The position numbers were made by a program, and so were the translations under genes. A DNA stretch of 49,123 nt from a virus: IMG/VR virus record IMGVR_UViG_3300006914_000015, positions 1-49,123 of that record; one strand, written 5' to 3'. Below, piece after piece: positions 33,444-49,123 of this stretch (positions are counted from its first letter, which is position 1; each line of letters starts with the position of its first letter). Below the pieces are notes generated by a model. It ran no database searches. It worked only from the letters and a program-made list of their open reading frames with translations, and was not told the origin of the DNA.

Positions 33444-33827
33444 CTAGAACGGCGGCGGCCCCGCGGTGGCCCGCCGCAGGTGTGCACGGGCGGTCTGCTT
33501 GTCGGCGTCGGTGGGTTCGGCGAGGATCCACGGCGCGGACTGGCCGGGCTTGGCAACACCCCGGCCGAGCCGCCCGAGGACCATCCGTCCGGTGCCGATC
33601 TTCGGCCGGAGTTGCCCCTGCAACGCCTTCTGGAAGATCAGCACGCCGTTGTGCTCGGTGCCGGCGTCCTTGCCGTCCAGGACGGTGACGGTGGTTTCGA
33701 CGGCGTCGGCGGGGCCGAAGGACGTGTTGATGTCCTTCTGCTCGCTGGTGGGGGCGAGGAGCAGCAGGCACCCCTCGAACTCGGTGATCTTCACTCCGGT
33801 CGAGGGGGCGTCGAACATGTCGCTCAC
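33444..33827 (-). CDS. conserved actinophage protein next to RecB-like nuclease
   Basis: 127 aa from GTG 33827 after AAAGGA. MFDAPSTGVKITEFEG, LLLLAPTSEQKD, HNGVLIFQKALQGQLRP and MVLGRLGRGVAKPGQSAPW occur together in actinophage recombination/replication regions. The beta-rich core could be an OB-fold ssDNA-binding protein, but this is inference from position. No named family recalled. Confidence 0.7.
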   Translation of the reverse strand: MSDMFDAPSTGVKITEFEGCLLLLAPTSEQKDINTSFGPADAVETTVTVLDGKDAGTEHNGVLIFQKALQGQLRPKIGTGRMVLGRLGRGVAKPGQSAPWILAEPTDADKQTARAHLRRATAGPPPF

Positions 33828-41874: not shown

Positions 41875-42152
41875 CGGGACACGCCCCGCGAGATCTCGTC
41901 GTAGCGCGCCCTGGCCGACGGCTTGATCAGCATGATGATCGCCTGAAGGCGCCGCTCGCCGTCGAGGTTGTCCCGTAGCCCGTTCCACACCTTGTCGACC
42001 CGCTTCTCGCAGGTCTGCGGGTCGAGGCCGTTGTTCTCGGCGTACATCCACGAGGCGTAGTCCTCGACGGCCTGCGCCAGGACGTGCTCGACGACGGCCT
42101 CGTTGAGGGCCTGGTCGACGAATTCCTCGGGGGTGCGCTCGGTGGCCATCAC
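41871..42152 (-). CDS. hypothetical early protein
   Basis: 93 aa; GTG 42152 followed by ATG 42149, either could start. ALNEAVVEHVLAQAVEDYAS, then LIKPSARARYDEISRG: helical. First genes after the Cro-like regulator, so an immediate-early protein. Unknown function. Confidence 0.62.
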   Translation of the reverse strand: MMATERTPEEFVDQALNEAVVEHVLAQAVEDYASWMYAENNGLDPQTCEKRVDKVWNGLRDNLDGERRLQAIIMLIKPSARARYDEISRGVSR

Positions 42153-42382
42153 GCGGCCGCCGTTCCGGTCGGCGCGGGGAGGAACCGTGTCACCGGCACG
42201 CCGAGGAGTTCGGCGGCACCGTCCAACTCAGACGGCCGGAACTCAATTCGCCCGGCGAGCCGGCGCTGGATCTGCACCTGGGACAGGCCGAGCTGGGCGG
42301 CGAGCTGGCGCTGGCTCACGCGCTGGCGGGCCATCTCCGCTCGTACCTCAGCCGCCACGTATTCGGCCAGATTCTGTGTCAT
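42149..42382 (-). CDS. Cro-like XRE-family regulator
   Basis: 77 aa from ATG 42382. VSQRQLAAQLGLSQVQIQRR is the HTH, with LAGRIEFRPSELDGAAELLG after it. It is the first gene of the minus-strand early operon and diverges from the plus-strand repressor, the usual Cro position. It probably binds the shared operators and favours lytic growth. Confidence 0.8.
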   Translation of the reverse strand: MTQNLAEYVAAEVRAEMARQRVSQRQLAAQLGLSQVQIQRRLAGRIEFRPSELDGAAELLGVPVTRFLPAPTGTAAA

Positions 42383-42940: not shown

Positions 42941-43795
42941 ATGACCAGCGTGATCGTGCCGCCGGTTGATCAGGACATGGACATCCCGACGTCATTGCAA
43001 ATCATCCGCGAGCACCTCGACTGGATGAAGGACAGCGAGAAGTTCTCCACCAACACCATCGAGGACGCCCGCCGGGTGCTCCTCGCCGCCGAGCGCGATC
43101 TCGGCGCGCTCGCCACCGCCGACGAGGGCGAGTTGCGGGCGTGGCTGGCTGGCGACGGGTGGAGCCGGCAGACGAAGGCCACCTACCGGCAGCACCTTGT
43201 CCGGTTCTTCCGCTGGGCCTTCGACGACGAGTGGATCGACTTCGACCCGTCGACCCGGCTGGCCCGGCCCCGGGTGCCGAAGGGCGTACCGCGGCCGTGC
43301 ACCGACGCGGAGGCCGACCTGGCGGTCACCGCATTACCGATGCCGTTCAAGCTCCACGCCCGGCTGGCCCGCTGGGCGGGGCTGCGCTGCATCGAGGTGG
43401 CGCGACTGCACCGCGAACACGTCACCGCGACGCAGATCTTCGTCCTCGGGAAGGGCGACAAGCCGGCCGTCCTGCCCAACCACCCGCGCATCTGGGAGCT
43501 GGTCGAGCCGCTGCCGTCCGGGCCGGTGACCCGCAAGCCTCGTAGCCAGGCCGGCCTGGATCACTGGGTGTCGACGGAGACCGCCGAGCAGCTACGCGCG
43601 ATCGGCGTGCCGATCACCATGCACCAGTTGCGGCACTGGTACGCCACGGATCTGCTCAAGACCACGGGGAATATGGAGTACGTGCGGCGGCTGATGCGGC
43701 ACGAGTCGATGGACACCACCCGCGGGTACACGCTGGTGGGTCAGACCGAGCTGCACGACGCGGTGCTCGGTCTGACCGACATCAGCGTCCGATGA
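42941..43795 (+). CDS. tyrosine integrase
   Basis: 284 aa. SAM-like N-terminal domain (TIEDARRVLLAAERDLGAL). Catalytic residues: Arg149 (WAGLRCIEVARL), Lys171 (LGKGDKPA), His228 and Arg231 (MHQLRHWYATD), His254 (MRHESMD), Tyr263 (TRGYTLVG). It would recombine attP with attB. No attachment core could be recognised from one sequence. Compact for a phage integrase, with no long N-terminal arm-binding domain. Confidence 0.92.
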   Translation: MTSVIVPPVDQDMDIPTSLQIIREHLDWMKDSEKFSTNTIEDARRVLLAAERDLGALATADEGELRAWLAGDGWSRQTKATYRQHLVRFFRWAFDDEWIDFDPSTRLARPRVPKGVPRPCTDAEADLAVTALPMPFKLHARLARWAGLRCIEVARLHREHVTATQIFVLGKGDKPAVLPNHPRIWELVEPLPSGPVTRKPRSQAGLDHWVSTETAEQLRAIGVPITMHQLRHWYATDLLKTTGNMEYVRRLMRHESMDTTRGYTLVGQTELHDAVLGLTDISVR

Positions 43796-44093
43796 CCCGC
43801 GGCCGCCGGACCGGCTGGCGCTGACGCAGGGCCAGCGTGGGCTCCTCGCTGGCGACCTCGATGCGAGGTAATCGGTCCGGCGGCAGCTGGTCGCGGCGGG
43901 CCACGACGATGACGTCTACGCGGCCGTCACGCAGCAGCGCCTGAATACTCGACCAGCGTTCACCGCTGGCCTCGTCGATGACGATCGACACCAGTTCGTA
44001 CCCTCGCGCCTCGACGTGTAGCGCGCAGGTCCGTCGCCAGCGGTCCATCTGTTCTCCAGCCGGGAGATAGATGACCGCTCGTAGATCCGACAT
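43782..44093 (-). CDS. resolvase-fold protein lacking the catalytic serine
   Basis: 103 aa from ATG 44093 after GGAGG. LRAVIYLPAGEQMDRWRRTC and VDVIVVARRDQLPPD follow the serine-recombinase N-terminal fold, but the place of the catalytic Ser (YxRVSxxxQ) reads YLPAGEQ. It is probably not a recombinase; relatives occur in actinobacterial mobile elements. Its 3' end overlaps the integrase gene by 14 bp. Confidence 0.65.
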   Translation of the reverse strand: MSDLRAVIYLPAGEQMDRWRRTCALHVEARGYELVSIVIDEASGERWSSIQALLRDGRVDVIVVARRDQLPPDRLPRIEVASEEPTLALRQRQPVRRPRVIGR

Positions 44094-44565: not shown

Positions 44566-44781
44566 CTACTCCGCGACGAACACTCCGCGGCCGGGCTCGC
44601 CATACACCAGGCCGCGGTCCCGCAGAAGGCCGATAGCGCGAGCGACCGTGGCCACCGAGACGCCGTAGATGTCGGAGAGCTGCTTGTAGGAGGGCAGCGC
44701 CATACCGCGCGGGTACTCGCCGAGCCCGATGCGGGCGGCGAGATCGTCCGCGATCTCCCGGTAGGACAGGTGGCGAGGCAC
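44566..44781 (-). CDS. GntR-family regulator (KorSA-like)
   Basis: 71 aa from GTG 44781, with GGAG ~11 bases upstream (GTG 44793 lacks a site). YREIADDLAARIGLGEYPRG, LPSYKQLSDIYGVSVATV and GLVYGEPGRGVFV form the full GntR winged helix, with no effector-binding domain, like the KorSA transfer/excision regulators of actinobacterial elements. It most likely binds the CCTATGTCACTAGGTG sites. Confidence 0.82.
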   Translation of the reverse strand: MPRHLSYREIADDLAARIGLGEYPRGMALPSYKQLSDIYGVSVATVARAIGLLRDRGLVYGEPGRGVFVAE

Positions 44782-44850
44782 TGTGGTGGTCACTCCTGAG
44801 TCAGCACCTCCAATCGGATCATGGATGCCTAGCTCACTTCAAGAGCATGG

Positions 44851-44880
44851 TTGACCTATGTCACTAGGTGAGCTTAGTGT
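44851..44880 (+). promoter_or_regulatory. plus-strand promoter with operator in its spacer
   Basis: TTGACC (44851-44856) and TAGTGT (44875-44880), spacer 18. The operator-like CCTATGTCACTAGGTG (44855-44870) fills the region between the two boxes, so its binder would block the promoter. Downstream lie the stem-loop block and the plus-strand genes at 45125-45911. Confidence 0.55.
44855..44870. promoter_or_regulatory. 16-bp operator-like site, copy 2
   Basis: CCTATGTCACTAGGTG, exact reverse complement of the site at 44173-44188. It lies 74 bp upstream of the GntR gene start. The nearby CCTAGCTCACT (44828-44838) is a related half-site that also occurs at 24403-24413. Confidence 0.62.
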
Positions 44881-44911
44881 AGTTGAAGCGGTCCCCCTGA
44901 GTCAGCAAACC

Positions 44912-45102
44912 CGGGGTGGATACCCGCTGCGCGGTGGCCCGGGGTAAGCACCCAGTCGTCCCACCCGGCTCGACTCAGCCCCCGGCCACCGCGCGCCCCA
45001 GACGTGCGCCGACCACCGGGGAGATAGGTCGGCGCACCAGCGTGCGGCGGCCGGGCGGGTCGGGCTCCCCGCCGAGGCTCGGGAGTTCTGCCCGGCCGCC
45101 GC
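44912..45102. ncRNA. four consecutive stem-loops (structured leader or site)
   Basis: Hairpin 1: CGGG/CCCG, 44912-44926. Hairpin 2: GCGCGGTGGCC (44929-44939) pairs with GGCCACCGCGC (44984-44994); GGGG/CCCC adds four pairs across one bulge, and AGTCG/CGACT closes an inner stem. Hairpin 3: GTGCGCCGACC (45004-45014) with GGTCGGCGCAC (45027-45037). Hairpin 4: GCGGCGGCCGGGC (45044-45056) with GCCCGGCCGCCGC (45090-45102), with inner CTCCC/GGGAG. No good gene lies here; a ribosome-binding site and ATG 45125 follow. Likely a structured 5' leader, small RNA or integration/transfer site. Confidence 0.6.
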
Positions 45103-45124
45103 GCCACCTCGACGAGGAGGAGCG

Positions 45125-45280
45125 ATGGACTGGCACTATCCGGCGCTGCGCTCCCCGTGGCTGTCCTGGCTCCCCAAGCGCTGCACGTGCGGCCGCTACC
45201 GGTGCCCGTCGCTTGTCAGGCAGGAACGCGCGCGGCGACGGCACGAGCTGGCCGAGTTCTGGGACGAGCGGCAGTGGTAG
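45125..45280 (+). CDS. 51-aa basic protein with Cys cluster
   Basis: 51 aa from ATG 45125 after GAGGAGGAGCG. WHYPALRSPWLSWLPKRCTC, GRYRCPSLVRQERARRRHEL. Strong site and stop-start overlap with the next gene support it. Cys-x-Cys and one more Cys suggest zinc binding; the Arg-rich part could bind nucleic acid, possibly the leader RNA. Function unknown. Confidence 0.7.
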   Translation: MDWHYPALRSPWLSWLPKRCTCGRYRCPSLVRQERARRRHELAEFWDERQW

Positions 45281-45519
45281 TCAAGCCGCGGTCACCGGCG
45301 CCGCCAGACCCCGAGTTCTCCGAGTGGCGGGCGCTGCGGATCGCCGAGCAGGAAGTCATCCTGGCGCGGCACTCGCCGGGCGGCGGCGACAGCTGCGAAG
45401 GATGCGCTGCGGTCGGCGGGAACTACCCCGGCTGGTCGTCTGCGTGGCCGTGCGGCAAGTACCGGGAGGCCCAGCGGCTGATCGACATGCTGTCGGGGCG
45501 AACCCCCGAGAGGGCGTAG
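45274..45519 (+). CDS. hypothetical small protein with Cys motifs
   Basis: 81 aa from GTG 45274, overlapping the preceding gene by seven bases. DPEFSEWRALRIAEQEVILA then GDSCEGCAAVGGNYPGWSS, a pattern found in actinobacterial integrative elements and phages. CEGC may bind metal. Unknown role. Confidence 0.66.
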   Translation: MVVKPRSPAPPDPEFSEWRALRIAEQEVILARHSPGGGDSCEGCAAVGGNYPGWSSAWPCGKYREAQRLIDMLSGRTPERA

Positions 45520-45521
45520 CC

Positions 45522-45911
45522 GTGCTCACCGAGACGCAGCGCCGCTGCACGGGCATCCCGATCACCTTCGACCGCGACACGCACGAGCCGGCCGCGCCGG
45601 TCGGCATGTTCGTCGTGGTGCCGCTGGAGTGCCCGCTGTGCCGGCTGCTCACCACGCGGTGGTGGGGTGTGGCGGGGTGTGCTGACGCACGTCGCGCCGC
45701 GGTTGCCGGACTAGCTGTCGCGCAGCCGTTCGACGACGACCCGGCGGAACACCCACGTCGTGCCGACCTGCGCGCCGACGAGCCGGCCGTTCTGGACCAT
45801 CTGGTGGACTGCCTGCCGGCTGACGCCCAGGATCGCCGCCGACTCGGCGAGCGAGACGAGGTCGGGGATGTGCCGGTCGCGGGCCACGAGCACACGGTAC
45901 ATGATGCTTGA
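45522..45911 (+). CDS. hypothetical Cys-containing protein, C-terminus uncertain
   Basis: 129 aa from GTG 45522, two bases after the preceding stop. Residues 1-65 look genuine (CTGIPITFDRDTHEPAAPVG, MFVVVPLECPLCRLLTTRWW). The remaining half lies antisense to the excisionase-like gene and may not be the original end, as relatives seem to stop near residue 65. Confidence 0.5.
   Translation: MLTETQRRCTGIPITFDRDTHEPAAPVGMFVVVPLECPLCRLLTTRWWGVAGCADARRAAVAGLAVAQPFDDDPAEHPRRADLRADEPAVLDHLVDCLPADAQDRRRLGERDEVGDVPVAGHEHTVHDA
45711..45902 (-). CDS. excisionase-like helix-turn-helix protein
   Basis: 63 aa from ATG 45902. LVSLAESAAILGVSRQAVHQ and NGRLVGAQVGTTWVFRR form an HTH_17/MerR-type winged helix, the fold of excisionases and small regulators. 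It probably directs integrase towards excision or represses its neighbours. It is transcribed divergently from the gene at 46002 over the TTGAC-N4-GTCAA sites. Confidence 0.78.
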   Translation of the reverse strand: MYRVLVARDRHIPDLVSLAESAAILGVSRQAVHQMVQNGRLVGAQVGTTWVFRRVVVERLRDS

Positions 45912-48272: not shown

Positions 48273-49123
48273 TCATCTTCTGGGGAGTGTGGGTCGGTGA
48301 CCGCCGAGGCTGAGCATGGCCAGCGCGATGATGGCTTCGGCGGAGTGGAACCCGAACGCCACGCGCACGATGAGCCGGATCTTGGTGTTCATCGACTCGA
48401 CGAGGGCGTTGGACAGGCCGTGTTCGATCGAGGCGACGATCGCGTCGCGGTTGCGCACGACCCGTTGGGCAAGCGCTACGAAACTGGACAGTCGGCAGCG
48501 GCGAGCCCAGCTGATCCACCGGTCGAGTGCCTCGACCGCTTCGGGTGGGCTACGCCGGGCGATGGCGAACACGGTGCGCAGCCCTTCCTTCAGCGCCCAG
48601 GCTCGGTGCAGCGCCGGGTTCGTCTTGGCGATCCAGGCCAACTGCTCCCGCTGCCGCTCGGTCAGGTTCTCCGGGTTCTTCCACAGCGCCCAGCGGGCAT
48701 CCTTGAGCGCCTTGGTCACCCCGGTCGGGCTCTTGTTGCGGCTGTGACCGCGGGCCGCGCCACGGGCGGTGTTCCAGGCGATGCGCCGCTGTTCATCCAG
48801 CGCCGCGGTGGCCCAGGTGACCACGTGGTACGGGTCGGCGCCGCGGATGGCCTGCGGGCAGTGCTCGGCGAGGACCTCGCTCATCCACCTGGCGCTGTCG
48901 GAGGAGATATGGGTCAGCTGTGCGCACCGCTCGGGCCCGAGCCGGGTGAAGAACGCGGCCAGGCTGGCCTGGTCAGCGCCCTTACCGGCCCAGACCAGCC
49001 GGCCGGTGTCGTGGTCGACCACGACCAACAGGTACTTGTGGCCCTTGCGGTAGGAGATCTCGTCGATGCCGATGCGGCGCAGCCCGGCCAGCAGGTCCAC
49101 CCCGGCCTGCGTGTCGGCCCAGA
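48273..49123 (-). CDS. ISL3-family transposase, C-terminal part
   Basis: The DDE catalytic core. GIDEISYRKGHKYLLVV gives the first Asp, THISSDSARWMSEV the second, and NALVESMNTKIRLI the Glu; RGADPYHVVTWA and AWNTARGAARG are ISL3 signature stretches. Stop at 48273. The upstream part continues at 501-1 on the other side of the circle, giving 423 aa. Full-length and with all three catalytic acids, so the element should be able to move. Confidence 0.92.
   Translation of the reverse strand, partial: WADTQAGVDLLAGLRRIGIDEISYRKGHKYLLVVVDHDTGRLVWAGKGADQASLAAFFTRLGPERCAQLTHISSDSARWMSEVLAEHCPQAIRGADPYHVVTWATAALDEQRRIAWNTARGAARGHSRNKSPTGVTKALKDARWALWKNPENLTERQREQLAWIAKTNPALHRAWALKEGLRTVFAIARRSPPEAVEALDRWISWARRCRLSSFVALAQRVVRNRDAIVASIEHGLSNALVESMNTKIRLIVRVAFGFHSAEAIIALAMLSLGGHRPTLPRR
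49044..49123. repeat. 80-bp terminal direct repeat, right copy
   Basis: Exact copy of bases 1-80, inside the transposase gene. See the left copy: it is consistent with a circularly closed contig. Confidence 0.9.

Follow-up and report, generated by a model that had tools for sequence, protein, structure and literature searches.

The hairpin-dense block at positions 44912-45102 of the phage genome studied here probably forms the structured 5' leader of a rightward transcript, or makes up the body of a short RNA; near its 5' end this RNA is predicted to pair with the ribosome-binding site of the mRNA for a divergently encoded GntR-type repressor. The RNA structure of this leader is well supported; its antisense action on the repressor mRNA is predicted from the sequence. 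The feature that explains most about the locus is a pair of short repeats that was absent from the initial annotation of the block.

Organization of the repressor/leader locus

The window, that is, the whole stretch of DNA analysed (49,123 nt), is an entire IMG/VR virus record and represents a 49-kb phage genome, in which the tailed-phage functions terminase large subunit, portal, head protease, major head protein, tape measure and endolysin were recognised. To the right of the tyrosine integrase gene follow a leftward GntR gene, an intergenic stretch whose final 190 nt form the hairpin block, and small rightward ORFs that begin at 45125 (Table 1). The 51-aa ORF with its ribosome-binding site, and the promoter and operator, all of which the initial annotation had placed around the block, are present as described, and its view that the block encodes no protein holds, as no coding signal was found there in any frame. 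The 51-aa ORF has no family match, and neither this ORF nor the overlapping 81-aa ORF has a homologue among the viral contigs.

Table 1. Positions of the genes and sequence elements at the repressor/leader locus.
Feature	Position	Strand	Remarks
Tyrosine integrase gene	42941-43795
GntR-type winged-helix repressor gene	44566..44793	-	75 aa, without effector domain; Pfam GntR, E 2e-14
Repeat copy 1, CCTGAGTCAGCA	44795..44806	.	UGCUGACUCAGG in the repressor mRNA; shares bases with its AGGAG Shine-Dalgarno site
Rightward promoter, TTGACC-N18-TAGTGT	44851..44880	+	pattern match in relatives
Palindrome ACCTATGTCACTAGGT, likely repressor operator	44854..44869	.	in the promoter spacer
Repeat copy 2, CCTGAGTCAGCA, proposed antisense seed	44896..44907	+	predicted to lie in the first 25 nt or so of the rightward transcript
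Leader hairpin 1	44929..44994	+	11-bp perfect stem (44929-44939/44984-44994) plus inner stem
Leader hairpin 2	45004..45037	+	11-bp perfect stem (45004-45014/45027-45037), 12-nt loop
Leader hairpin 3	45042..45104	+	13-bp perfect core (45044-45056/45090-45102), 18 pairs when extended; inner stem
First rightward ORF	45125..45280	+	51 aa, Arg/Cys-rich; GAGGAGG ribosome-binding site directly 5'
Second rightward ORF	45274..45519	+	81 aa; overlaps the 51-aa ORF; no family match

An XRE type repressor gene (phrog_4583) at 42149-42382 heads the leftward operon, and the main immunity role may be held by this repressor rather than by the GntR gene. An excisionase-like HTH_17 gene (45711-45902, minus strand) is nested in the rightward ORF 45522-45911, and an ISL3-type transposase (48273-49100) at the record's right end is read leftward, so that the record may include an insertion or host flank. 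ORF 2071-2304 presumably resembles, as judged by eye, a DUF397-type protein, a family of actinobacterial chromosomes.

While a generic sigma-70 scan made no call at the rightward promoter, the pattern TTGA(C/A)-N17-19-YANNNT is found at 36 of the 85 homologous loci, where 0.8 would be expected; no leftward sigma-70-like promoter was found. Copy 2 of the repeat starts at a median of 17 nt past the -10 box, and this spacing should place it no more than a few tens of nucleotides from the inferred 5' end of the rightward RNA. The palindrome in the promoter spacer is the likely repressor operator. Palindromes with an arm score of at least 7 occur at 20 of 86 loci (4.4 in shuffles); at many loci a gap of 13-29 bp separates the palindrome from copy 2 downstream of it (CTAGGTCATACAGTGACCTAG, ACCTACGTCAGATAGTGACGTAGGT, CTACACAAGCATTTTGTGTAG), and in the window and several other loci it lies inside the rightward promoter.

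The repeat pair and the direction of its divergence

The exact 12-nt repeat CCTGAGTCAGCA occurs just twice in the genome (44795 and 44896), in an orientation that makes the rightward RNA and the repressor mRNA complementary. Because copy 1 overlaps the Shine-Dalgarno site of the repressor gene and copy 2 should lie in the rightward RNA, this complementarity covers the ribosome-binding region.

Relatives of the GntR repressor are present in phage pMLP1 of Micromonospora, in IMG/VR contigs and in 130 of 355 Micromonosporaceae genomes; a class-wide search returned mostly general GntR regulators. When the divergent regions of these relatives are read side by side, their layout is constant and their sequence varies: a GntR-type repressor gene and a rightward promoter face away from each other, the promoter has a predicted palindromic operator, a sequence at the repressor's Shine-Dalgarno site is repeated at the predicted start of the rightward RNA, and a GC hairpin leader comes next. 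This module recurs at about 85 loci in phages and Micromonosporaceae chromosomes, with differing seed sequences (CTGGGTTGGC, CTTCGTTCGGCA, CTCCGGTTGGTTCGGC, TGCRGTCGGTTGGC and more in other clades). The repeats are direct and mostly 11-20 nt long; the first copy adjoins the start of the repressor gene, and the second lies 82-161 bp away, past the rightward promoter. When any spacing from 75 to 165 was allowed, pairs with a score of at least 11 were detected at 86 of 194 non-redundant GntR loci, compared with 6 at control spacings, and copy 1 overlaps the repressor's Shine-Dalgarno site at 59 of the 70 loci for which such a site could be assigned. Outside viral records, repeat pairs were found in Micromonosporaceae only, with one weak exception (L196). 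Since many modules reside on long Micromonosporaceae contigs, the module is not purely a phage device. A single genome can carry modules with different seeds (for example loci L076 and L117 in G001; L227 and L255 in G246), a difference that would keep the modules apart.

The main rival to RNA pairing is a pair of DNA sites: the two repeats would be bound by the GntR (or another) protein, each just past a divergent promoter, and the hairpins would be an ordinary mRNA leader. The model for such an arrangement is provided by the KorSA/SCO3932 regions of actinomycete integrative elements, which likewise combine a GntR-family repressor, a divergent partner and two related intergenic sites; in the divergent region next to its own gene, the KorSA homologue SCO3932 protects a pair of asymmetric sites, one of which covers the neighbouring start site (PMC8584621). 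Direct repeats naturally suit protein sites, and the variable spacing (about 82 to 161 bp) is allowed by two independent sites. However, KorSA-type proteins are larger than the 75-aa module repressor and possess an effector domain, their sites act as DNA, and the module already contains a GntR-operator-like palindrome elsewhere, in the promoter. Copy 1, moreover, tracks the Shine-Dalgarno site, an overlap by which the module repeats differ from the KorSA sites.

The two readings predict different patterns of divergence between the copies. DNA sites would accumulate differences without direction, whereas paired RNAs would tolerate changes that keep a G·U pair and not the opposite transitions. 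We scored as compatible a C in copy 1 with a T in copy 2, or an A with a G. At spacings of 75-165 and scores of at least 10, the copy-to-copy differences comprise 24 wobble-compatible transitions, 2 incompatible ones and 5 transversions; in unique contexts, 17 compatible transitions face 2 incompatible ones (p 0.0007). The direction is the same at every scoring threshold tested; for thresholds that leave eight or more unique transitions, p ranges between 0.0001 and 0.07. As the counts derive from related loci, these p values are approximate, but all clades agree in the direction. A G-U intermediate is visible in the near-identical loci L079/L080 and L272/L273. The repeats thus diverge mostly in a way that retains RNA pairing in the transcribed orientation, unlike KorSA-type sites. 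Our own first reading of the repeats as repressor operators was dropped in view of the Shine-Dalgarno overlap, the separate palindrome and this wobble bias; it is thus improbable that the copies serve as the operator, and we consider the DNA-site pair unlikely.

Predicted duplexes are more stable for cognate than for non-cognate pairs of RNAs (-46.5 versus -34.9 kcal/mol), a difference that follows from the repeats and is not an independent proof of pairing. The accessibility of copy 2 gave no signal, with a predicted single-strandedness of 0.35 versus 0.33.

The hairpin leader as a structured RNA

The perfect stems of 11, 11 and 13 bp that the initial annotation had listed, with inner stems in the first and the third, were confirmed; the small fourth stem (about 45107-45120) exists, but it is weak and overlaps the Shine-Dalgarno region of the 51-aa ORF. 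The fold of 44905-45125 has a predicted energy of -136.7 kcal/mol (z -4.3 on the plus strand and -3.1 on the minus strand), and no dinucleotide shuffle was as stable on either strand. A set of three non-overlapping stems, each 10 bp or longer, within 191 nt did not occur in any of 1000 dinucleotide shuffles, and among 1632 sliding windows of the phage genome it occurs in the block alone. The claim that its density is far beyond that of other gaps in the genome thus stands for stem density but not for folding z, for which equal or lower values were obtained at 33617 and 43740. The stretch 33617-33807, in or near the gene 33444-33827, has the lowest z of the coarse genome scan (-5.7). A second hairpin-dense spot, 43690-43900, is located where the integrase gene ends, opposite a convergent ORF (GCCGCCGGACCG ... 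CGGTCCGGCGGC); it is a candidate terminator or attP.

Known RNA families and direct homologues were sought for the block. No Rfam covariance model reached its gathering threshold in the window, and none had an E value of 1 or below in 44790-45140. The phage collection contains no DNA homologue of the leader, and blastn matches of 30-100 nt in Micromonosporaceae were judged to be chance GC-rich matches. The covariance search proposed in the initial annotation, carried out with a single-sequence model of hairpins 2-3, returned nothing from the 355 Micromonosporaceae genomes, which is weak evidence as none of them is a known match; in 26 related loci it gave weak matches only. The sequence of stem 3 was also tried as a family signature: the pattern GCGGCGGCCGG..CCGGCCGCCGC retrieved 48 viral-contig stretches, whose mixed context marks it as a common stable stem rather than a family. 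In four unrelated viral contigs a 14-bp GCGGCGGCCGG stem (L041 3454-3540, L045 1879-1960, L047 3162-3240, L064 901-980) sits right before an ORF of 57-71 aa, and the bases that directly follow the stem on its 3' side are complementary to its loop GCTGGCGGGCC; by this complementarity it is a candidate leader pseudoknot of the ORF.

Evidence for RNA comes from the relatives. A perfect stem of at least 9 bp is present in the 160 nt past copy 2 at 59 of 85 loci (69%, versus 9.4% in shuffles); the corresponding values for a downstream control are 17% and 10.7%. The leaders fold better as rightward RNA than as the reverse complement (mean z -2.00 versus -1.58, paired p 0.004), and departures from perfect stems favour G·U over A·C (31:21, versus 86:130 in shuffled sequences; p 0.012). 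In the clade that was formally tested, consisting of eight loci (L155, L156, L158, L159, L162, L165, L170, L279), a 14-bp leader hairpin is paired in 112 of 112 cells, four of its pairs have two-sided changes, and each one-sided change retains a standard pair via G-U in the rightward RNA. A second clade, inspected by eye, behaves alike, with CCGUGGG/CCCACGG swapped for CCCAAGGG/CCCUUGGG. This strand bias, the excess of G·U and the covariation in the tested clade point to the leader hairpins being RNA of the rightward transcript, and support the earlier suggestion of a structured RNA or regulatory leader. That the window's own stems are of the same kind rests on the shared architecture.

It had also been suggested that the leader is sensed by the small basic protein encoded next to it. 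The first downstream ORFs give this idea no support, as they are unrelated between loci and clades while the leader architecture persists; they are short and presumably resemble membrane, DivIVA-like or Cys-rich proteins.

The hairpins might instead act as an attenuator or antitermination element of the rightward operon, with the repeat pair being a separate matter. Several hairpins between a promoter and the first gene would fit such an element, for which the put RNA of phage HK022, a conserved two-hairpin element that suppresses downstream terminators, is a precedent. Unlike put sites, however, the leader shows no sequence conservation between clades. No canonical terminator was seen in the window or the relatives; the window stems lack a U-tract, and T enrichment after the leader stems of relatives is mild (0.19 versus 0.13). 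We regard this reading as doubtful, on a par with the DNA-site pair.

A role of the block as a recombination or transfer site (attP or single-strand origin), as raised in the initial annotation, is very improbable. Palindromes near an integrase gene of a mobile genome would suit such a site, but the block is about 1 kb from that gene, beyond the repressor gene, no tRNA was found in the window, and the same layout is shared by modules on long Micromonosporaceae chromosome contigs; the sequence is also asymmetric, with departures confined to G-U and a strand bias in its folding, which points to an RNA that is single-stranded and stems from one strand. Least credible of all is chance pairing, which a GC content of about 68% might foster: the shuffles, proposed earlier as a check, refute it for stem density, and the arrangement is unique in the genome and recurs in homologous modules.

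Relation to known circuits and a possible mutual-silencing switch

Among the closest known systems are IstR-1/tisB, OhsC/shoB and OrzO/zorO, in which an antitoxin RNA transcribed divergently to its target pairs through its 5' end, over 18-21 nt, with the neighbouring mRNA's 5' UTR (PMC3919570). In the module, too, the 5' part of an RNA is complementary to the 5' UTR of its predicted target (over 12 nt in the window, 11-19 nt in relatives). A promoter-like sequence that might drive divergent transcription is suitably placed at the 36 of 85 loci mentioned above. The module differs from these systems in that the predicted pairing, of 11-19 nt, lies over the Shine-Dalgarno site, that the RNA may double as an mRNA leader for small ORFs, and that the host is an actinobacterium. 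In contrast to type I toxin-antitoxin systems, its predicted target is a GntR winged-helix DNA-binding protein and not a small hydrophobic toxin.

The phage antisense RNAs c4 (P1/P7), sar (P22) and OOP (lambda) tune the lysis-lysogeny decision, and c4 pairs around a ribosome-binding site (PMC12197685). Whereas c4 and sar silence an antirepressor and OOP silences cII, the predicted target of the module RNA is the repressor itself, and its promoter is under the predicted control of that same repressor.

The module hairpins resemble in their placement the ESAS of cluster K mycobacteriophages, inverted repeats located just 5' of the starts of non-structural genes (PMC3203893). The ESAS, however, are repeated at many genes, while the window has one place with three such stems, and departures within the ESAS lack the support for RNA pairing that those of the module's leader hairpins provide. 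The 13-bp SAS GGGATAGGAGCCC abutting start codons has no match in the window within one mismatch (8 weak matches versus 18 expected). We found no paper describing the GntR/leader module in the openly accessible literature.

Under the RNA-pairing reading of the repeats, the circuit would most likely work as follows. With the repressor bound to the palindrome, the rightward promoter would be off; without repressor, after its loss or before its synthesis, the leader RNA would appear. Its 12-nt seed CCUGAGUCAGCA, near the RNA 5' end, is exactly complementary to UGCUGACUCAGG of the repressor mRNA, and pairing would block translation of the repressor, keep its level low and thereby lock the rightward unit on, as in a double-negative switch. 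The GC hairpins 3' of the seed might stabilise the RNA, separate the seed from the downstream mRNA, or act as an attenuator. We infer here that the leader is transcribed, that pairing takes place in vivo, which of the RNAs regulates the other, and what the hairpins do; this direction of regulation is how the Shine-Dalgarno overlap is most simply read.

We put forward only tentatively, as a possibility of somewhat less than even weight, that the module is an RNA-armed bistable switch in which a small GntR repressor and the structured leader RNA made from the promoter under its control silence each other, the RNA acting via the repressor's ribosome-binding site, and that phages and Micromonosporaceae chromosomes carry many such switches with private seeds. 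If so, RNA pairing, and not a Cro-like protein, would set both the switch and its specificity, and actinobacteria and their phages would possess a class of circuits with an RNA counter-repressor. This would explain why a conserved repeat pair is found at the ribosome-binding site of small GntR genes and beside the divergent promoter, and the modules might yield a large number of orthogonal RNA switches whose seeds are short and easy to read.
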